This document shows positions 2,538-21,864 of a stretch of DNA of 38,767 nucleotides, piece after piece. Position 1 is the first letter of the stretch; each line of letters opens with the position of its first letter. The notes under the pieces were generated by a model. The model was not told where the DNA came from and did no database searches. It saw only the letters and a program-made list of their open reading frames with translations. The position numbers and the translations under genes are program-made. The DNA lies in IMG/VR virus record IMGVR_UViG_3300042376_000610, positions 1-38,767 of that record. The stretch is one strand, 5' to 3'. The stretch is from a virus.

Positions 2538-4394
2538 TTAAGGCAGAATAACCAATGGTCCCTGGATAATTAAACCGTTTGCAGCACCACCGGAAATAAC
2601 ACCAGAACACACAATGGCAGGTGTTGCGCCAGAAGGAGTTGTAACTGCAAGTGTGCTGCCGGTAAGCGACGTAAATGCCCCGGTATTACCAGTGACCGTA
2701 GCTCCTGAAAGCTGTGATGTAAAAACACCGGACGTATATGTTGCCGTAACCCCTGTTGTCGTTGTTCCTGTTAAAGAAGTAAAACTACCTGTTGTAAAAG
2801 TAGCCGTAATGCCAGTGGTTGTTGTACCCGTTAGAGAAACAAATGTTCCAGTTGTTGCTTGAACGGTCGTTCCGGTAATGGTCGTACCACTAAGTGTTCC
2901 TGTAATTTGTACACCGGACGCAAAGAAACCGGAACCAAGAACGTTCAAATCACCAGATACGGTTGTATTTGTGAACGATAAGTTGGTTGCTTGAAGGGTG
3001 TTAAAGATACCAGTCGTAGCATTGACCGTTGTTCCTGTAATGGTCGTACCACTGAGGTTGACAAAAACACCTGATGTCCCCTGGACGGTATTACCAGTGA
3101 CTGTGGCACCAGAAACACTTGTGGTGAAGACACCTGCAATACCGGTTAGGTTTGTAAAAGCACCCGTGTTGCCAGTAACGGTCAGGCCAGAAACACTTGT
3201 TGTAAAGGTACCAGTGGTTCCAGTGACGGTTGTGAAGTTTGCGCTGTCTCCGGTAACTGTACTTCCACTGAGGTAACTGCTGAACGTACCAGAGATACCA
3301 TTGACAATTGAAAATAAACCCGAAGCACCTGTAATAGTCATGCCTGAAACACGACTATTAAAAACACCAGATACACCGGAAATTATTGTCGCGTTGACGT
3401 TGGTACCAGTAATAGTTGCACCGGAAAAATTGGTGAATGTCCCCGAAACACCTGTGAGTGTTGTGTAGTTTCCAACATCGCCAGTAATAAAAGCCCCTGA
3501 CAACACCTGGGTAAAAACACCCGAGATGCCGCTGATGTTGCCAAAAGATCCCGTATTTCCTGTTACGGTTGCACCAGAAACCCTGGTCGTAAAGGTACCA
3601 GATACACCGGTAATATTCGAGAAACGTGCTGTATCACCTGTAATGGTGGCACCTGAAAGCACGGTTGTGTAGACTCCAGATACACCAGTAACGGTCGTAA
3701 ATTGAGCTGTAGTTCCGGTAATTGTTGTTCCAGAGAGCGTCCCGGTGGCTTGGATACCGTTTGCAAACTGAGCTGTACCAGTAACAGTCAATCCGCTTGC
3801 AACGGAAAGATTACCACTGACGTTAAGGACGGGAGTACCAAGGGTTTGGAATGTACCCGTCGTTGCGGCAACCGTTGTTCCAGTAATTGTTGTACCGCTT
3901 AGCGCAGTAAAGACGCCACTGGTTGCGGATAGATTGTCTCCAGTGATTGTGGCACCGGACAAGGTTTGGTAACGACCACTGGTAAACAAAGCTGTTGTAC
4001 CGGTTGCAGTCGTTGTTGTTACCGTGCCTGCATTAAGGGTTGTCCCCTGGAGGGCTGCACCTGTGATAGTGGCGCCACTGATGGTTCCGCTGACTGTTGC
4101 ATTGTTTTGAACGATGATGCCACTGAACGTTCCAGTGCCAGACGCCGTTACGGTATTAAATGTGCTGCTGCCTGAAACAGATAAGTTACCAGTAATATCA
4201 ATGTTGCCACTAATGGTTTCACCGCTGATATTTGCGTAGTACTGATCAAGATATGAACGAAACTGCGTAAAGGTAATTTTTTTGTTGCGCAGTACAGGAT
4301 CCACCTCAAAAACGTGGACCAGAGTAAGTAGATCCTGCTCGTCAATATCAATCCCGCTGATGGCAGGAAATTCTGAAATCCTACGGTTTGACAC
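2538..4394 (-). CDS. Tail fibre with 26-residue TG-repeat shaft
   Basis: 618 residues. The first 55 (RISEFPAISGIDIDEQDLL, then HVFEVDPVLRNKKITFTQF) form a distinct capsid-proximal or attachment domain of a type seen at the N-terminus of cyanophage fibres. The rest is a low-complexity shaft of SGATITG-x-FTxxTGVSGxF repeats, rich in Thr, Gly, Ser and Val and almost free of charge, as expected for a beta-helix or triple-beta shaft. The C-terminus (SGGAANGLIIQGPLVILP) is a short hydrophobic cap. The start is a GTG at 4394; no ATG is available upstream. A TATAAT box lies 28 nt ahead. Residues 502-569 match residues 54-121 of the downstream fibre, so the two genes share ancestry. Its receptor or assembly partner cannot be told from sequence. 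Confidence 0.85.
   Translation of the reverse strand: MSNRRISEFPAISGIDIDEQDLLTLVHVFEVDPVLRNKKITFTQFRSYLDQYYANISGETISGNIDITGNLSVSGSSTFNTVTASGTGTFSGIIVQNNATVSGTISGATITGAALQGTTLNAGTVTTTTATGTTALFTSGRYQTLSGATITGDNLSATSGVFTALSGTTITGTTVAATTGTFQTLGTPVLNVSGNLSVASGLTVTGTAQFANGIQATGTLSGTTITGTTAQFTTVTGVSGVYTTVLSGATITGDTARFSNITGVSGTFTTRVSGATVTGNTGSFGNISGISGVFTQVLSGAFITGDVGNYTTLTGVSGTFTNFSGATITGTNVNATIISGVSGVFNSRVSGMTITGASGLFSIVNGISGTFSSYLSGSTVTGDSANFTTVTGTTGTFTTSVSGLTVTGNTGAFTNLTGIAGVFTTSVSGATVTGNTVQGTSGVFVNLSGTTITGTTVNATTGIFNTLQATNLSFTNTTVSGDLNVLGSGFFASGVQITGTLSGTTITGTTVQATTGTFVSLTGTTTTGITATFTTGSFTSLTGTTTTGVTATYTSGVFTSQLSGATVTGNTGAFTSLTGSTLAVTTPSGATPAIVCSGVISGGAANGLIIQGPLVILP
3114..3734 (-). repeat. Eight imperfect 78-bp tandem repeats
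   Basis: Residues 221-427 of the fibre form eight consecutive units of 26 residues (one of 25), each beginning SG(A/S/L/M)(T/F)(I/V)TG and ending (V/I)SG(V/T)FTxxV/L. The fixed 78-bp period with drifted sequence indicates an old tandem duplication. Confidence 0.8.
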
Positions 4395-6713: not shown

Positions 6714-7301
6714 ATGAGCGTCCTGGCCGATTGGGAAATCAAAAAACTTGCTGAAGAAGAGGAGATGATCGCTCCCTTCGTTGATCACTTGGTCAGCAAG
6801 GAAGATGGCCGCAAGCTCTTAAGCTATGGTCTCAGCTCATACGGTTACGACATTCGGCTATCCCCTTCCCAATGCCTAATTTTTGGCAAGGTACAAGCTG
6901 GTGATTGCGATCCAAAGAACTTTGACCCTGACATCCTGAAGCCTGCAGATCTTCTGGAGGATGAACGCGGCCAGTACTTCTTGCTCCCTCCGTACGGCTA
7001 TTGTCTTGGTGTTGCGCAAGAACGCCTGAAGCTTCCCAGGGATGTCACTGTTGTTGCAGTAGGTAAATCTACCTATGCACGTTCAGGCATCTTGGTTAAT
7101 ATCACGCCTGCCGAAAGCGGTTGGGAAGGTTACTTGACGTTGGAGATCAGTAACTGCACTGGGCTCTTCAATCGCATCTATGCAAATGAGGGGATCACGC
7201 AACTGCTGTTCTATCGTGGCAACCCCTGTCACACCACGTACCAAGATCGGAAAGGAAAGTATCAAGACCAACCGAATAACGTAGTCTTTTCTCAGGTTTA
7301 A
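6714..7301 (+). CDS. dcd: dCTP deaminase (Dcd)
   Basis: 195 residues, close to the usual length of about 190. The trimeric dUTPase-fold enzyme deaminates dCTP to dUTP, feeding dTMP synthesis for phage DNA replication. Visible family features are LLSYGLSSYGYDIRLS (35-50), the phosphate/active-site loop GKSTYARSG (117-125), ITPAESGWEG (130-139), the catalytic-glutamate segment LTLEISN (E144) and a C-terminal YQDRKGKYQDQPN (176-188) that should close over the active site. Whether it also hydrolyses dUTP, as bifunctional Dcd-Dut enzymes do, cannot be decided. AAGGA sits 5 nt before the ATG. A TATACT box at 6687-6692 could support an extra start of transcription, but no good -35 accompanies it. 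Confidence 0.9.
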   Translation: MSVLADWEIKKLAEEEEMIAPFVDHLVSKEDGRKLLSYGLSSYGYDIRLSPSQCLIFGKVQAGDCDPKNFDPDILKPADLLEDERGQYFLLPPYGYCLGVAQERLKLPRDVTVVAVGKSTYARSGILVNITPAESGWEGYLTLEISNCTGLFNRIYANEGITQLLFYRGNPCHTTYQDRKGKYQDQPNNVVFSQV

Positions 7302-8644: not shown

Positions 8645-9304
8645 CTAGCTAGTGAATAGCAAATCAAGTTCCTGGTCTGGGAAATCGCCCAACTTGTTTT
8701 CATTCACACGAAACGCATTGGCAAACTCTGACAGGATGTAAGGACTGATGCGTTCTTCCAGTTGACGAACTGCACGTACCTCATGGGGAGCGGCGCTGTA
8801 GTTGCGGAAGGCTGTCAGAAGCACTTCAGTGGAAGACCAAGGATTGGCATCGACCTCTTGGAGGAACAGGTTGATCTCTTCCCTGCGGCGGTCCAGAAGG
8901 CCACCAATGACGTTGTGCTCCTCATCACAGATCCAATGGCCCATCTCCTGTGTAGCACCACAGAAGTCCTCTGCCTCGATGCGGTCGATGACGTGGCTGT
9001 ACAGGAAAGGATCCCAGCCGACCGAATGGATGAATGAGATTAAGGCCTGGCGCATGCTGTTGTCCAAACCAAGGTTGAGCTTAGCTAGCTGATTGTCAAT
9101 GACATTGATCTCGTGGAAGAGGTATTCCAGGGCCTTCTCACGAGTACAGCATTGTCCACGCTTGACGGGAGAACCATCGGGATAGAACTGAGTACCAAAC
9201 CCGATGGTGTAGGGATCTTGACCAGTTGTCGGATCGGGGTAGGCTTTTTCGCTATACCCTTCGTATTTGCGGATTAGGTTAACCGCATGCGAAAGATCCG
9301 ACAT
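8645..9304 (-). CDS. Endolysin, GH24 lysozyme
   Basis: 219 residues. The N-terminal T4-type lysozyme (GH24) domain shows the catalytic triad pattern E15 (KYEGY), D24 (YPDPTTG) and T33 (YTIGFGT), then the QALISFIHSVGW-like helix (about 86-97) and GLLDRRREEINLF (134-146), all typical. It cleaves the MurNAc-GlcNAc bond. A C-terminal extension (about 150-219) is unlike T4 lysozyme and may bind wall or have another structural role. No signal peptide is seen, so release would need a holin; two candidate membrane proteins lie at 4440-4775 and 25918-26214. The start codon abuts a perfect hairpin that pairs the AGGAG sequence (see 9304-9327). Confidence 0.88.
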   Translation of the reverse strand: MSDLSHAVNLIRKYEGYSEKAYPDPTTGQDPYTIGFGTQFYPDGSPVKRGQCCTREKALEYLFHEINVIDNQLAKLNLGLDNSMRQALISFIHSVGWDPFLYSHVIDRIEAEDFCGATQEMGHWICDEEHNVIGGLLDRRREEINLFLQEVDANPWSSTEVLLTAFRNYSAAPHEVRAVRQLEERISPYILSEFANAFRVNENKLGDFPDQELDLLFTS

Positions 9305-9489: not shown

Positions 9490-9915
9490 TTAGCGGGGAA
9501 CTGAGCTTCTGGCTCTTCGGTTGGCAGCTTGTTCTTTAGCTGTAGCCCATCGAACATTACCTGGCTCGTAGTGGCCAAGATTATTAATACGATCCAAAGA
9601 AGTACCTTCCGGTCTTATGCCAATTTCGTCAACCAACTCCTGTAAAGAAGTAAAGCGAAATTCAACATTTACATAGTAACCTCGATGTCCAGTCTTGCAG
9701 CGATATTTTGCCTTGTAATAACTTGATCTTGTTCTAAGCATCGCTGGATCATTCTTGACCCCTGTTCCCTTGTTTGTAGGTACTTGACCTTGCTTGGTGC
9801 ACGAACGACATCTCCAAGTGCCGTTTCTTCTACTGTATTGATCAATGCGAATACTTCCTTCGCAAGAGCAAGACTCACAAAGAACATTAACAAAACGACT
9901 GTTGGCGTTGGCCAT
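9490..9915 (-). CDS. HNH homing endonuclease with N-terminal zinc ribbon
   Basis: 141 residues from the ATG at 9915; the frame extends six codons to a TTG. N-terminal cysteines (C13, C16, C18, C36, C39) suggest a zinc ribbon. The C-terminal half has the phage HNH block SLDRINNLGHYEPGNVRWAT (106-125) followed by KEQAANRR, the D-R-I-N-N and N-V-R-W-A-T signature of free-standing phage HNH nucleases. It probably nicks or cuts DNA at a specific site to promote its own spread. The neighbours on both sides are complete, so it is intergenic and not intron-borne. Confidence 0.85.
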   Translation of the reverse strand: MANANSRFVNVLCESCSCEGSIRIDQYSRRNGTWRCRSCTKQGQVPTNKGTGVKNDPAMLRTRSSYYKAKYRCKTGHRGYYVNVEFRFTSLQELVDEIGIRPEGTSLDRINNLGHYEPGNVRWATAKEQAANRRARSSVPR

Positions 9916-9955
9916 TGGGTTCAAGCGACCCAACTATCATACCACTTGACGCTAT

Positions 9956-10261: not shown

Positions 10262-12499
10262 TTAACCGAAGAAAGAGCCAAAGCTGCCAAGAAAATCTTG
10301 AGCAGACGGAGATTTACTAGCTGTTGTCTTGCTACTTCCTATTTTAAAGTATGAGGGCGCACCTTCATCCTCTTCGTCTGCAAAGATGCTGAAATAACTT
10401 TTCTTTGTAGGCAACTCAGGTTCTTTTGCACTGCTGTCTTCAAACATGCTACCGATGGATGACATGGCGGCAAATGGGTCGGACATGTCAGGCATGGAGA
10501 AACCAAATAAACCTTGCATCCCTCCCTTAGTAGCTAACCTGCCGTCTACTTTTCCAAGGTTTTTGTCTTCGTCTGTTGCGTCTGGAAAGAAGTCACGATA
10601 AAACTCAGACTCATTTCCGTTATACCCGGCTTTCTTAAAGATGTTAAAAAGAGCTGTGCCACCGGCTGGTGATTTAGCTTTTTCATCAGTATCCCGCTGA
10701 ATGTAACTAACACCCAATTGTTCTTGCGTAGGCTTAATTTGTTGTTCATTGAGGATGCGAATCTTTTCGCGTATTTCAGAAGCAGGTTCTGTCCTTAAAA
10801 ATTCAGCAAGATAAGCCTTGACTTGATCGGCCGGCGTCTCATTAGGATCCATACCAACACCTTTTAACTGTGTTAGATATTCTTCCGGAAGGTCCTTCAG
10901 GTTTAATTTGTCAACCAGTTCTTGTGTCTTTGTCTCAGCGGAAACAAAGTCTAAGAATACCGGATTACCATACGATGCTTTTTGGTTTTGTAGTGCTGTT
11001 GCTAGGTCCTTTTGAATGAAAGAAGCAAGATCATCTCGTGTATAGGTGTCAGCAACTGGATCATAGCCTTGAGGCTTGCCAATCAATTCGTAATGTAACC
11101 TTGCAAAGTCATCTTTATTGTTGACGTCTAATCCGTATTCATATGCCCACTGTGCCCATGTTTTTCCGTCTTTTACAGCATTAGTAGAGGCTCTATTTTC
11201 CCATGCTCCGTTAACGCTTGCTTTCTGTTGAGCATATAGATTTGCCTTGCTTGTGGCATCTGTACCACTCAGCAATTCAGGATTCAGATAAAACTTAGGA
11301 TCAAATGCTTTACTTGTGGTTTTTGTTGCAAGGTCACTTAAATAGTTATTGGCTTGTTTGTTGGCAAAATCTTTTAATGCACTTGATGCAAGCTGAGTTT
11401 GCAAAACGTTTTGCTCATCTTCTTTCACATCCATATAGCTAACAAATTCCGTGATTGATTTTGATGTATCAAAACGTGGCTTCAAATAATCGTTAATAAA
11501 TTTGTTTGCAAATTCTTGTTCAATCTTGTATGTGGTTGCAGCATCCGTGGGATCTTTAATCTCCTTCATGTTGCGATAACGTTCGGCAAGCGTTTCGTCA
11601 AACCACTTCTGCCAGTTGTATTTAACAGAGGAACCAATCCCTAAACTCTTGTCAAGAGATTTAGAAAGGCTTTGACCAAAACTTGCAAAACCACCGCCGC
11701 CAAGATCGCCAAGAATTGAGTTCTTGATGTCCTGCTTAAAGCCATTGACATCAGGCATACCCATGCCTTGGAACATGGAACTCATCTGCTCTTGTTTAAG
11801 AGTTTTTGAGTATTGGTCCAGGGTTTGCTTGAGGACATCAGCGGAGAGCGCACCAAAGGTTTGTTCCCCTTGGCGGTCAATGTAATCTTGCGTAGAAAGC
11901 TCAACCAAGGAAGTGGGCTGAGCAGACGATGTGCCTAATAAAGTCTCTCGTAAAACTTGACGTTCTCTATCAGTTGGAGGACGCAGTTTTTCTGTGTACT
12001 CGGTAAGCTGTCTTTGTTTACCAGGAAGACCAGCCGGAGAACCAACAAAGCTATAGTCTGCGTGAAGGTAACTATCTAAGTCGGGATATTGTTTGGTGAT
12101 ATCAACGTCTGCAATCTTTTGCCCTGCAAAGGTAACTGCCTTACTTGCTTCTTTCCAGGTCTTAGCTTTATCTGGAACTAAACCAGCGTAAAACTTTGCA
12201 TCAAAGTCAGTAAGATTCTTGCCTTGTTTAGTTGAGTCCCAGGGTTTTATGCCTGCTGCTTTTTCGTAAAATGATTCAATAGTGCCAATGGCATCCGCAT
12301 CGACGATGTCCTTGGACGCAATACCTTTGCTTTGGAGATCTCTATCAATCCCCTCCATCAATGTTTTATAACTTCCTGCAGATCCTTGAAAAGCGTTTAA
12401 GCGCGTAGCAATAAGCTCTGCTGCTTCTTGTTCCTGAGTAGAAGCATCTTCCGCAAGAGCAGGTGTTAAACGCCCGTTGGATACAATAAAACGAATCAT
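10262..12499 (-). CDS. Large probable virion protein, function unknown
   Basis: 745 residues, soluble, mostly helical and rich in Lys, Asp, Gln and Ala. Two related segments are visible: DFDAKFYAGLVPDKAKTWKE (about 98-117) and AFDPKFYLNPELLSGTDATS near the middle. A Gly/Ser-rich linker (GDLGGGGFASFGQSLSKSL) follows a Met-rich stretch. The C-terminal third has acidic low-complexity sequence (ADEEDEGAPSYF). Size, position in the late operon and the lack of enzymatic motifs suggest a tail or internal virion protein. The start overlaps the upstream HNH stop (ATGA), so the two are co-transcribed. Confidence 0.75.
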   Translation of the reverse strand: MIRFIVSNGRLTPALAEDASTQEQEAAELIATRLNAFQGSAGSYKTLMEGIDRDLQSKGIASKDIVDADAIGTIESFYEKAAGIKPWDSTKQGKNLTDFDAKFYAGLVPDKAKTWKEASKAVTFAGQKIADVDITKQYPDLDSYLHADYSFVGSPAGLPGKQRQLTEYTEKLRPPTDRERQVLRETLLGTSSAQPTSLVELSTQDYIDRQGEQTFGALSADVLKQTLDQYSKTLKQEQMSSMFQGMGMPDVNGFKQDIKNSILGDLGGGGFASFGQSLSKSLDKSLGIGSSVKYNWQKWFDETLAERYRNMKEIKDPTDAATTYKIEQEFANKFINDYLKPRFDTSKSITEFVSYMDVKEDEQNVLQTQLASSALKDFANKQANNYLSDLATKTTSKAFDPKFYLNPELLSGTDATSKANLYAQQKASVNGAWENRASTNAVKDGKTWAQWAYEYGLDVNNKDDFARLHYELIGKPQGYDPVADTYTRDDLASFIQKDLATALQNQKASYGNPVFLDFVSAETKTQELVDKLNLKDLPEEYLTQLKGVGMDPNETPADQVKAYLAEFLRTEPASEIREKIRILNEQQIKPTQEQLGVSYIQRDTDEKAKSPAGGTALFNIFKKAGYNGNESEFYRDFFPDATDEDKNLGKVDGRLATKGGMQGLFGFSMPDMSDPFAAMSSIGSMFEDSSAKEPELPTKKSYFSIFADEEDEGAPSYFKIGSSKTTASKSPSAQDFLGSFGSFFG

Positions 12500-12852
12500 G
12501 ATGCTGCTTTATATTCTTGCATGTCAATTAAGTTTACATTCCCTGGTTGCGTCCAGGCTTTTATTGCATCTAACTTGGCTTGATCAAAAAAATCTTGTTG
12601 CTTGTACCAGGTTTCCATATGGGATGAAGCTTTGTTTGCGTTGCAACGGCAACAAGCTGGGATCAAGTTATGTCGATTAGAACACCCTGATTTAAACCGT
12701 GGGATTACGTGGTCAAGACTTGTGGCGTCCTTGCCGCAATAACCACATTTGTAGTCCCAGGCTTGATATATACTTTCTCTGAAACGTTTCTTGGCAAGTT
12801 TTGGAGTTATTTCAACTAGCAGGGCGAGAGGCTCGTGCTGGCTGCAAAACAT
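12496..12852 (-). CDS. HNH endonuclease (McrA-like)
   Basis: 118 residues. Compact HNH fold with zinc cysteines C36-x-x-C39 (YKCGYCGKDATS), the DH pair D47-H48 (LDHVIPRFKSG), N62 (NRHNLIPACCRCN) with C67 or C68 and C70, and a final N73-K74. These are the beta-beta-alpha-metal residues. It could be a free-standing homing enzyme or, since small HNH proteins sometimes aid phage packaging, a terminase accessory; its distance from the terminase genes favours homing. It is the first minus-strand gene left of the plus-strand HTH cassette and overlaps the next gene by ATGA. Confidence 0.85.
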   Translation of the reverse strand: MFCSQHEPLALLVEITPKLAKKRFRESIYQAWDYKCGYCGKDATSLDHVIPRFKSGCSNRHNLIPACCRCNANKASSHMETWYKQQDFFDQAKLDAIKAWTQPGNVNLIDMQEYKAAS

Positions 12853-15613: not shown

Positions 15614-16297
15614 TCAAGCGTACGGATTAAGGTAGCTTGACAAGAAATCAAGGGGGCCTGCCATGGTTTGAGGGGAGAGTAGTTGCCCCATCAATTCCTG
15701 CTTCAGGAGATCTTTCATGGACACTTCCTTGGTATTACTGCCGGACATTGCCGCCATAAAACCTTTCAAGAAGTCGTTGCTAGATAAATCTTGCTGTTGC
15801 TGTCCTTGGGACGCTTGGCCTGCAGAAGGCAAGGTGCCATAGCCTTCAGGTATATCTCCTAAAACACGTTGTGCATTTTTAAAGAGATCTCCACCTTCTT
15901 TGAAGCGTGGTAAAGCACTCCTTACAGATGTCCCAAAAGAATCCTTGGAATCTAGCGATACGTTTGGATTTCCACCAAGGACTGTTGCATAAGCACGCCC
16001 AATATCCATTCCAGGCTTAAAGCCACGGTCTTGAAAATATTTCAAGACAGCAGGCATCTGACCGGCTCTTGTCTGAGGTCCAGTAATGCCGTAAAGCTTT
16101 TGTTCGTTCTGCCCGAATTGAATCAGTCCCTTATGGCGACGTCCTGCACCACCAACAATGTTGGGATCCATATTGGGTCCGGATTCTAAAGAAAGGAATC
16201 CGCCAAACTCATAAGGATGCAAACCTAATTGCTGTGCCCCACGGAAGATTGCCATCCGCTCTTCATGGGGAAGGATACCAACGCGTGGAGTAGACAT
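15614..16297 (-). CDS. Lytic transglycosylase-like virion protein
   Basis: 227 residues. Residues 12-65 have the signature of an SLT-type lysozyme-like fold: an N-terminal helix (ERMAIFRGAQQLGLHPYEFG), a candidate catalytic glutamate E38 in LSLESGPNMDPN, and GLIQFGQNEQ (57-66), matching the G-(L/Y)-x-Q-(F/I/L) motif of transglycosylases. The mid region (YATVLGGNPN, 103-112) also fits. The C-terminal half is Gln/Ser-rich and probably flexible. Virion-associated enzymes of this kind open peptidoglycan locally during DNA entry. It is distinct from the GH24 endolysin and the M23 protein. Confidence 0.65.
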   Translation of the reverse strand: MSTPRVGILPHEERMAIFRGAQQLGLHPYEFGGFLSLESGPNMDPNIVGGAGRRHKGLIQFGQNEQKLYGITGPQTRAGQMPAVLKYFQDRGFKPGMDIGRAYATVLGGNPNVSLDSKDSFGTSVRSALPRFKEGGDLFKNAQRVLGDIPEGYGTLPSAGQASQGQQQQDLSSNDFLKGFMAAMSGSNTKEVSMKDLLKQELMGQLLSPQTMAGPLDFLSSYLNPYA

Positions 16298-17842: not shown

Positions 17843-18508
17843 TTAACCAAACAGTCCACCTGTGGAAGACGACAACAACTGCTGGAACAATGCGCCAGTC
17901 ATATCATTTTGTTGTGGCTGTACCAGCTCTTTAACAAACCCTCGCATCATTTGTGTTTTTGGATCTTCTTTTGGTTCACCTCTCAGCAAAGAACCAAGAA
18001 GATAACCAGATAGCATCCCTTGGAAATCAGAAGGATTTGATACACTGGTGTTAGCAGTGGACGCACCCTGAGAAAGATCTGCTGCCTCTCCCAGTGATTG
18101 CATATGTCCCAAGCGAATTTGATATTTGTTGTCCCCCGTGGTAAACGTAGAAAGGTTTCCGTAAGCTCCTTGGTTGGCTAGAGGAACGTATTTACCGGCA
18201 CCTTCATAAAAGATTGGAGTACCCTCTGGTAAAGCCCAGTCCTCACCTTTGTGCTGCCTTCCTCCACGGGGGCCGTATTTAGACGTAATGGTAATGCCGG
18301 CCTCAGGATTAAATGTAAATTTTCCTTCTGGCGTTTGGATTAATGCTGGAATTCTCTTCTCACCAATTCGTAATCCACTTAAAGGGGTGCGAATTGTTTC
18401 AGGATTTAAGAAGGCGCCTGTTGCAAGATCTTGTACTTCAACATGCAAGTGCGGCCCAGTTGATCTACCAGTGGAACCAACACGCCCTTTAAACGTAATG
18501 CCAGCCAT
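17843..18508 (-). CDS. Circularly permuted M23-type metallopeptidase
   Basis: 221 residues. M23 (LytM-like) peptidases normally run HxxxD, then a YxHL/GHM segment, then GxTGxSTGPHLHxE. Here the last piece comes first: GSTGRSTGPHLHVEVQDLAT (11-30, zinc ligands H20 and H22, with the usual NP end), and the first piece follows: ITSKYGPRGGRQHKGEDWA (74-92, H86 and D90), then IRLGHMQSL (131-139, H135). All ligands are present, so a working zinc site can be built by circular permutation. The remaining 80 residues are a Gly/Leu-rich tail. It would cleave peptidoglycan crosslinks, probably as a virion component. It follows a strong terminator, so its transcript is separate or depends on read-through. 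Confidence 0.8.
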   Translation of the reverse strand: MAGITFKGRVGSTGRSTGPHLHVEVQDLATGAFLNPETIRTPLSGLRIGEKRIPALIQTPEGKFTFNPEAGITITSKYGPRGGRQHKGEDWALPEGTPIFYEGAGKYVPLANQGAYGNLSTFTTGDNKYQIRLGHMQSLGEAADLSQGASTANTSVSNPSDFQGMLSGYLLGSLLRGEPKEDPKTQMMRGFVKELVQPQQNDMTGALFQQLLSSSTGGLFG

Positions 18509-18536: not shown

Positions 18537-18565
18537 AAAATAAAAACCCCCGGTTTCCCAGGGGT
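18537..18565 (-). terminator. Rho-independent terminator
   Basis: Minus strand: ACCCCTGG, GAAA tetraloop, CCGGGGGT, then TTTTATTTT. An 8-bp stem with one G-U pair, a stable GNRA loop and a T tract make this the clearest terminator in the window. It follows the helix-hairpin-helix gene ending at 18586 and precedes the M23 gene. Confidence 0.9.
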
Positions 18566-19853: not shown

Positions 19854-19889
19854 TTATCTTTTCCTATGTTGAGTGTTTATGTTCAGTTA

Positions 19890-21044
19890 TCAGATAGTGC
19901 CGTCATCTTGCACAAAGCTGTAAGCAGTGGTCACGAAGTCCTTGTTCAGGATCTCGAAACCAGCGTACAGTTGCCAAATCAGGATGATAAAGCGGCTGAA
20001 GTCATCGTTGTTGTTGATGAGCACCTGAGCGTTAGGACCGCCGATACCAACACCAACAGACTGAGGACCGAAGAAGTAACCTTGGGCCACTTCACGGGAT
20101 GCATAGGTGGAGCCACCATCGAAGGAAGCAGACACGTTCTTGGTCGGGAAGTTGGTCGACTCGAAGAACTTGACGCCTTCAAACTGCACACCAGTCGGCA
20201 TCACGGGTTCACCAGCCAGGAAGTAGCCCTGACCAGCTTGGGGACCCATGTAGAAGCTGGCGTTGTTAGGCATCATGGGGTTACCCATGTACATGCCTTG
20301 GCCAGGATTGCCGCTGTAACGAGCAATCTCACGGAAGTCTGGGTCACGACGCAGGTGCATCATGAAGGTGGGATCGCAGATGCAGCGATACAGACCATCA
20401 GCGAAGGTAGGAGTATTGCGCTTACGCAGGTCCTTAACAACGGTCAGAAGGTCGGTACGCACCTGGAACTGCTGCACCTCATTACCATACTCAGTGGAGG
20501 TGTAAGAAACACGACCCTGAGAATCTTTGGTCTTACCACCAGCGAAATAGTAACCGCCTTGGGTGGTGGAAGCAGCGCCATTGGCTTCTGCTTTGGCAAG
20601 TTCGTCAATGAAGACGCGGTCACGCCAACGGCGATAGTCGTCGAGCAGCGTCAGGCTACCGATCGACTGGTGGAACATGTTGAGGTTACCGGTGTCCAGC
20701 AGAAGACGCTGGGCGGTAATCAGAGTTTCACGCGCAATCTTGAAGGTCGAAGGCTGGGTCGGATCACCCGGGTCGGCAGGACCAGTGTATTCCTTAAGCA
20801 CCACCAGGACTTTCTCCTTGGTGATGTTACGGCTGTTAGCGGTACCGATCGTTTGGTCGGCAATACGCTCACGGCTGTCCTTCGTACCAGGGGTACCCCA
20901 GAACTTATAGCGGTCTAACTGAACGGTTTGACCGGGCTGACGGGTGAAGTCATGGACCACCACGGGCTCCACTGCCATTTCAGCAATGTAAGCAGGGTGA
21001 GGACGGTAAAGTTCCGCACCCAGAATCTTTGGAAAGTCGTTCTC
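19890..21044 (-). CDS. Major capsid protein, exon 2
   Basis: 384 codons of a 388-residue product (exon 1, at 21919-21930, supplies four). The first in-frame ATG lies at 20978, but the sequence before it (DFPKILGAELYRPHPAYIAE) is clearly protein, open back to a stop at 21061-21063 and has no start codon, which led to the intron. The mature part has PVVVHDFTRQPGQTVQLDRY, KFWGTPGT, RNITKEKVLVVLKEYTGP and a C-terminal region of capsid type, matching cyanophage major capsid proteins from memory. With a G as last intron base, exon 2 starts at GAG (21044) or AAC (21041); both keep frame. Size, position beside portal and decoration genes and HK97-type length support the call. Confidence 0.85.
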   Translation of the reverse strand, partial: ENDFPKILGAELYRPHPAYIAEMAVEPVVVHDFTRQPGQTVQLDRYKFWGTPGTKDSRERIADQTIGTANSRNITKEKVLVVLKEYTGPADPGDPTQPSTFKIARETLITAQRLLLDTGNLNMFHQSIGSLTLLDDYRRWRDRVFIDELAKAEANGAASTTQGGYYFAGGKTKDSQGRVSYTSTEYGNEVQQFQVRTDLLTVVKDLRKRNTPTFADGLYRCICDPTFMMHLRRDPDFREIARYSGNPGQGMYMGNPMMPNNASFYMGPQAGQGYFLAGEPVMPTGVQFEGVKFFESTNFPTKNVSASFDGGSTYASREVAQGYFFGPQSVGVGIGGPNAQVLINNNDDFSRFIILIWQLYAGFEILNKDFVTTAYSFVQDDGTI

Positions 21045-21266: not shown

Positions 21267-21295
21267 TTGAGCGTTCAGTTGAGGCATGCTATGCT
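21267..21295 (+). promoter_or_regulatory. Candidate promoter of the intron HNH gene
   Basis: TTGAGC (21267-21272), 17-nt spacer, TATGCT (21290-21295) on the plus strand. Start of transcription would be near 21302, just before the ATG at 21310, giving an almost leaderless message. The element is inside the intron but antisense to it. Confidence 0.45.
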
Positions 21296-21309
21296 TTGGA
21301 AAGCTGTTT

Positions 21310-21864
21310 ATGAACAACATGGATCCAAAACTTGTTCCTGGATTTGGTAACCTTTACTTAACGGAAGAGGGAAAAGCTTTTGAAAAACAACTTGATCCCG
21401 ATAATCAAGAATATTTTCAAGAGATTCCCATTCGTTCAACCAGTGTTTACGACCGCATTTCAGTTCTTGTAGATGGGAAGAGAAAACGTTTTCATCTTCA
21501 TGTCTTGATGGCGGTTGCTTTCTTAGGATTAGATCTTCGTTCACATGGAACTAGTAACTTTTCCTTACAAGTTGATCACAAAGATAATGACAAGAGGAAT
21601 AATCGACTTGACAATCTAGAGATCGTTACCAAACAAGAGAACTTAACAAGAGCCTGGAAGAGCGGTTGTTATAAAAACAATGGCTTTGCCAGTAAAGGAG
21701 CACCGAAGAAATCTTTGAGAAAATTTTCTTCGGAGGATGTGGCTCAGATTAAAGCTTTAAAAGAAGCGGGACTTTCTTATCGAAAGATTGCTGAAAAGTT
21801 TAGCTGTAACCACGGAGCTATTTACCAAATCTTGAAGGGCTATACCTACCAGGATCTGAACTAG
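21310..21864 (+). CDS. HNH homing endonuclease, antisense within the intron
   Basis: 184 residues from the ATG at 21310 (GGAAAG about 6 nt upstream; the frame extends eight codons to 21286, and an ATG at 21319 is another option). Residues 60-110 hold the phage HNH pattern: HLHVLMAVAFLG, QVDHKDNDKRNNRLDNLEIV (D89-H90, N98), TKQEN. The C-terminus (about 147-175, IKALKEAGLSYRKIAEKFSC) is a helix-turn-helix of the type used for DNA recognition by intron-encoded nucleases. It probably cuts intronless capsid alleles so that repair copies the intron. It is transcribed opposite to the intron and capsid gene, unlike most intron-borne nucleases, and needs its own promoter. Confidence 0.9.
   Translation: MNNMDPKLVPGFGNLYLTEEGKAFEKQLDPDNQEYFQEIPIRSTSVYDRISVLVDGKRKRFHLHVLMAVAFLGLDLRSHGTSNFSLQVDHKDNDKRNNRLDNLEIVTKQENLTRAWKSGCYKNNGFASKGAPKKSLRKFSSEDVAQIKALKEAGLSYRKIAEKFSCNHGAIYQILKGYTYQDLN

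Follow-up and report, generated by a model that had tools for sequence, protein, structure and literature searches.

The window analysed here, a stretch of 38,767 nucleotides of viral DNA, is collinear with the structural module of Synechococcus phage S-EIV1, with neighbouring genes in the same order and 39 to 88% identical. Within it, an open reading frame on the minus strand (17843 to 18508) encodes a protein of 221 residues that resembles M23 peptidases. The frame runs unbroken from ATG to TAA, and its ATG is the sole possible start downstream of an in-frame stop. An intrinsic terminator (18546 to 18565, minus strand) lies directly upstream and separates the frame from the upstream gene, and the frame is flanked by phrog_29158 and a helix-hairpin-helix protein. 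These immediate neighbours are 82 to 88% identical to their S-EIV1 counterparts, and the M23 protein is 30% identical. The window also encodes a transglycosylase-like virion protein (15614 to 16297, minus strand) and a separate Phage_lysozyme gene (8645 to 9304).

Several other frames of the window were noted. A 618-residue frame on the minus strand (2538 to 4394) carries degenerate SGATITG/TTITGTT-like repeats and probably encodes a fibre protein, and a dCTP deaminase-like gene (Pfam DCD) lies at 6714 to 7301. Three frames look like HNH endonucleases by sequence appearance (9490 to 9933, 12496 to 12852 and 21286 to 21864), the second of which matches the S-EIV1 HNH nuclease at 64%. A plus-strand frame of 350 residues (19866 to 20918) is open antisense to the major head protein; an open frame is likewise present opposite the S-EIV1 gene, and it is likely a codon-usage shadow.

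In normal M23 proteins the conserved motifs follow each other along the chain as HxxxD, GH and HxH. The first-pass annotation had described the reverse arrangement, HLH before HxxxD before GHM, and both the translation and an alignment to the M23 structure 3slu bear this out: the chain of the window protein reads HxH, HxxxD, GH. The motifs lie exactly where that annotation had placed them. The HLH motif GRSTGPHLHVEV spans G14 to V25 (18434 to 18469) and contains H20 and H22; H86 and D90 are found in QHKGEDW (HKGED, residues 86 to 90, 18239 to 18253) and H135 in LGHM (18104 to 18106). All five residues that it had listed, H20, H22, H86, D90 and H135, are thus present. In LytM (PMC4594094), His210, Asp214 and His293 hold the zinc, and activation of the nucleophile falls to His260 and His291. 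By alignment, H86, D90 and H22 of the window protein correspond to the three ligands, and H135 and H20 to the two activating histidines, which makes up the M23 set of ligand and catalytic residues.

The protein can be divided into four parts, all on the minus strand. Residues 1 to 29 (18422 to 18508; GxVGSTGxSTGPHLHVEV) align in 3slu with what is the C-terminal half of a normal M23 domain and form strands 4 to 11 and 20 to 27 in the predicted model. Residues 30 to 72 (18293 to 18421) are a linker from the old C terminus to the old N terminus, ordered in the model with a pLDDT of 93 to 95. The normally N-terminal half, with TSxYGxR, HxxxD and GH, occupies residues 73 to 146 (18071 to 18292) according to the 3slu and PDB structure alignments and completes the catalytic head. 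It is followed by a C-terminal tail (residues 147 to 221, 17846 to 18070) that is helical, has low pLDDT and behaves as an exchangeable module.

Profile searches supported the assignment to M23. PF01551 (Peptidase_M23) matched the window protein in two stretches with 39.2 bits (Pfam gathering cutoff 28.7; E = 8e-10), the better one placing protein residues 85 to 139 on profile positions 2 to 55. A phmmer search against PDB sequences gave a whole-sequence E value of 7.6e-8 for 3slu, in two complementary pieces whose order is swapped: query residues 62 to 143 matched 3slu 216 to 302, and query residues 7 to 51 matched 3slu 311 to 353. Since these pieces lie only about 8 residues apart in the reference, they are the signature of a circular permutation and not of two unrelated fragments. 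The window protein thus shares with the M23 family (PF01551; LytM, lysostaphin, 3slu/6muk, ShyA) the HxxxD, GH and HxH ligand set and a significant profile score, and it differs from ordinary members in that the HxH half comes first and the HxxxD half second, with new termini and a new linker.

Structure prediction was carried out with AlphaFold2. With 46 relatives, the model of the full protein had a pLDDT of about 95 over residues 21 to 140 and a poorly predicted helical tail; residues 1 to 147 with 53 relatives gave a pLDDT of 91.9 and a pTM of 0.87 (five models, 89 to 92), with a pLDDT of 97 over residues 21 to 30. The head is thus confidently predicted to form one compact domain. A model placing HLH and HxxxD far apart had been named by the first-pass annotation as evidence against a permutation; instead, residues 1 to 147 folded as a single confident domain with an ordered linker. 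When the model was compared with PDB structures, the nine best matches were all M23 enzymes, with Z scores of 5.0 to 6.2, a range below 8 in which a match can reflect a common arrangement. Half of the model superposes on each of these nine structures, since the swapped half is out of reach of a sequential aligner: every alignment covers only the HxxxD half (model residues about 41 to 146 on LytM 185 to 273). This supports the M23 fold assignment without completing it. Foldseek gave no PDB match with E < 0.001, the outcome to be expected when a permuted chain is aligned sequentially, and the fold claim is not based on it. In BFVD, by comparison, matches spanning the whole permuted domain were obtained with A0A510E7V3 (E = 2.5e-6), the P60 internal virion protein (E = 8.6e-4) and S-WAM2. 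The viral structure library also matched S-TIM5 and a tape-measure fragment, and the alignments overall covered 146 to 195 columns. P60 and S-WAM2 were in addition read at the sequence level; S-TIM5, A0A510E7V3 and the tape-measure fragment are structural matches alone.

We then looked at relatives, for which the first-pass annotation had proposed a search, and many proteins with the same permuted order were found. A scan of viral contigs with the window protein returned 20 relatives, 19 over most or all of the length and one, L022, in the tail only. Scans with the S-EIV1, L022 and L021 types returned 45, 72 and 42 relatives, respectively. The merged set comprised 115 distinct sequences, a number that includes an ordinary M23 protein (L002) and three tail-only matches (L062, L064 and L065). 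L002, from a fecal phage, was rejected as a permuted relative because its motifs are in the normal order. The permuted order is common to window-type, L021-type (HAH) and S-EIV1-type (HLD) cyanophage proteins. The S-EIV1 protein AHV82231.1 sits at the same locus, with the same permuted order and the tail in the same position, and differs from the window protein in its HLD motif in place of HLH and in its 30% identity; its record is annotated "peptidase M23 family" and the permutation is unmentioned. L022-type heads (HID) retain the permuted arrangement of HxD, H, D and GH. However, in a profile comparison they did not match the main family significantly (Prob 2.5), and the L022-type group is for this reason considered a probable member, with the S-WAM2 homologue as a structural match.

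The conservation of the motif residues goes beyond chance. In the alignment of 46 relatives, H20, H86, D90 and H135 were invariant; at column 22, window-type and L021-type proteins have His, while those of the S-EIV1 type have Asp, so that activity may differ between subfamilies. Among 53 aligned relatives, Acinetobacter tape-measure proteins included, the only invariant columns were G8, H20, S76, G79, H86, D90, G117 and H135, half of which (4 of 8) coincide with catalytic or ligand residues in M23 enzymes. Both halves of the domain are under purifying selection, with dN/dS values of 0.02 to 0.15 among window-type relatives, in some pairs with synonymous sites saturated. Two fecal contigs, L179 (HCD) and L180 (HLD), encode M23 proteins of normal order that have HxD in place of HxH at the third zinc-ligand site, indicating that the change of ligand and the permutation are two separate things.

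The permuted domain was also found inside larger virion proteins of several phage groups unrelated to one another. We could read the permuted order directly in Acinetobacter and Moraxella phage tape-measure proteins (QZI85290.1 and AKI27967.1 among others), which have HLD or HLH, then HKGID, then LLH. In contrast to the window protein, these domains are embedded in a long tail protein, have a shorter linker and lack the S-EIV1-type tail. The tape-measure scan reported 369 stretches, of which the best 80 were kept. In a scan of bacterial genomes with the tape-measure domain, nine loci, from nine Acinetobacter genomes, were permuted and the other eleven were not; the same scan with the S-EIV1 domain gave no match. 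Moreover, the internal virion proteins of Synechococcus phage P60 (AGA17892.1), S-CBP1 and DSL-LC07 carry at the C terminus a permuted domain in which STGPHLDVK precedes a GIDY-type segment; it differs from the window protein in lying behind a Phage_lysozyme2-like domain. Here the scan reported 160 stretches, and again the best 80 were kept. Pfam and PHROGs did not recognise the P60-type permuted domain as M23, whereas a P60 profile matched the main family across the cut (E = 2.8e-8). In L209 (778 to 3780; phage P60 gp33), a Phage_lysozyme2-like domain and then an unannotated permuted M23 domain were observed in one internal virion protein. In a tree of the two halves set in canonical column order (106 columns), a single origin was not rejected (p-AU = 0.65), and it was likewise not demonstrated. 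Tandem-duplicated M23 intermediates were sought among the loci of the relatives, and none was found.

The tail of the M23 frame (17846 to 18070) is homologous to that of the transglycosylase-like frame at 15614 to 16297 (HMM E = 9.5e-9), and this common segment may be a virion-sorting signal. The head of the latter frame is similar to segments of tape-measure and internal virion proteins; its likeness to a PHROG transglycosylase is weak. Tails and heads appear to be exchanged: the L022 tail is 86% identical to that of the window protein on a different, unrelated-looking head, and in L134 the tail (dN = 0.22 versus the window protein) is far closer than the head (dN = 0.48 to 0.71). We also observed the S-EIV1-type tail on another head with M15/VanY-like motifs (HPxGMAIDVRDW ... 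HDTHVHLAL) in L062 (3427 to 4116), L064 (5233 to 5919) and L065 (5626 to 6315); a Pfam search with L062 gave no match.

Given the structural-gene setting, the tail shared with the transglycosylase-like frame and the separate lysozyme, we infer that the window protein is a virion-borne peptidoglycan endopeptidase, its location following from gene context and its activity from its likeness to M23. The homologous permuted domains inside tape-measure and internal virion proteins lend this reading further support. M23 enzymes are common as endolysins, and some PHROG matches do carry that name; nonetheless, a role as the endolysin, released with a holin when infection ends, seems unlikely, since a Phage_lysozyme gene is already present, the M23 gene lies among structural genes, and the homologous permuted domains belong to tail and internal virion proteins. 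The phage lysozyme at 8645 to 9304 is the likelier endolysin. For the virion-borne M23 enzyme, the helical tail would serve as a sorting or packaging segment that brings it into the particle, and the M23 enzyme and the transglycosylase-like protein would together open the cyanobacterial cell wall during DNA entry.

Other explanations of the motif order were also considered. The idea that the gene is one half of a pair whose partner supplies the missing segments, which the first-pass annotation had raised against its own proposal, was rejected: a search of the record returned the M23 frame as its single M23 place, the neighbours are unrelated, and a terminator and a stop lie upstream. That two truncated, unrelated M23 remnants were fused, or that assembly or a frameshift created the arrangement, is hardly credible, the motif order itself being the only hint of it; the frame is intact, its halves match adjoining parts of one reference, and numerous independent contigs, as well as an isolated, sequenced phage, S-EIV1, show the identical order. 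With a rearranged chain and new termini beside the active site, one could conceive of a domain-swapped dimer or oligomer whose active sites are each completed by the HLH arm of a different subunit. This is very improbable, as the monomer is confidently predicted to be compact with an ordered linker and the permuted domain also sits within long tape-measure proteins. A permuted relic that has lost activity and only binds peptidoglycan or plays a structural part is improbable too. Indeed, HxD replaces HxH in the S-EIV1, P60 and most Acinetobacter types, but it also occurs in M23 proteins of normal order, the window protein keeps all five catalytic and ligand residues, and the invariance of four of them over 53 sequences goes with strong purifying selection.

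Taken together, the swapped halves, the conserved order and the single-domain predicted model agree with the circular permutation proposed by the first-pass annotation. Our best explanation, to which we assign a probability of roughly 85%, is that the window protein has the M23 (lysostaphin/LytM) fold in a truly circularly permuted form and, by inference, is virion-borne. The new opening in the chain would separate the strand bearing the GH histidine from the GxxGxTGxSTGPHLH hairpin, with the old ends joined through the ordered linker of about 40 residues. With the chain reopened and the old ends rejoined in this way, H20, H22, H86, D90 and H135 should come together as the one zinc site typical of M23, which would bind zinc and cleave peptidoglycan at its peptide cross-links in the manner of M23 enzymes.

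Permutation has a precedent among cell-wall hydrolases in the circularly permuted NlpC/P60 enzymes (YaeF/G6R, LRAT-like; PMC6403190), which differ from the window protein in being cysteine enzymes of an unrelated fold. A search of open-access papers found no permuted M23 enzyme; we thus take the permuted M23 form as new, undescribed in that literature as far as we found, within a family that is itself known. We favour, with little more than even confidence, a broader view in which an unrecognised class of permuted M23 domains, possibly of single origin, is the wall-opening domain of virion proteins in S-EIV1-like, P60-like and possibly T4-like cyanophages and in Acinetobacter and Moraxella siphophages. 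In several of its subfamilies, Asp would have replaced His as a zinc ligand, and in S-EIV1-like phages different heads would have been exchanged on a common virion-sorting tail.

Few cell-wall hydrolases have been studied as well as the M23 enzymes, which are also in use as antimicrobials. A natural permutant would mean that the M23 fold tolerates termini beside its active site, and it would provide a different geometry for domain fusion. The permuted family would also be a natural test of the His-to-Asp change at the zinc site. Finally, the permutation would account for the failure of standard profile searches to pick up more than half of the domain, if any of it, in phage tape-measure and internal virion proteins, and it suggests that many phages carry unannotated peptidases.
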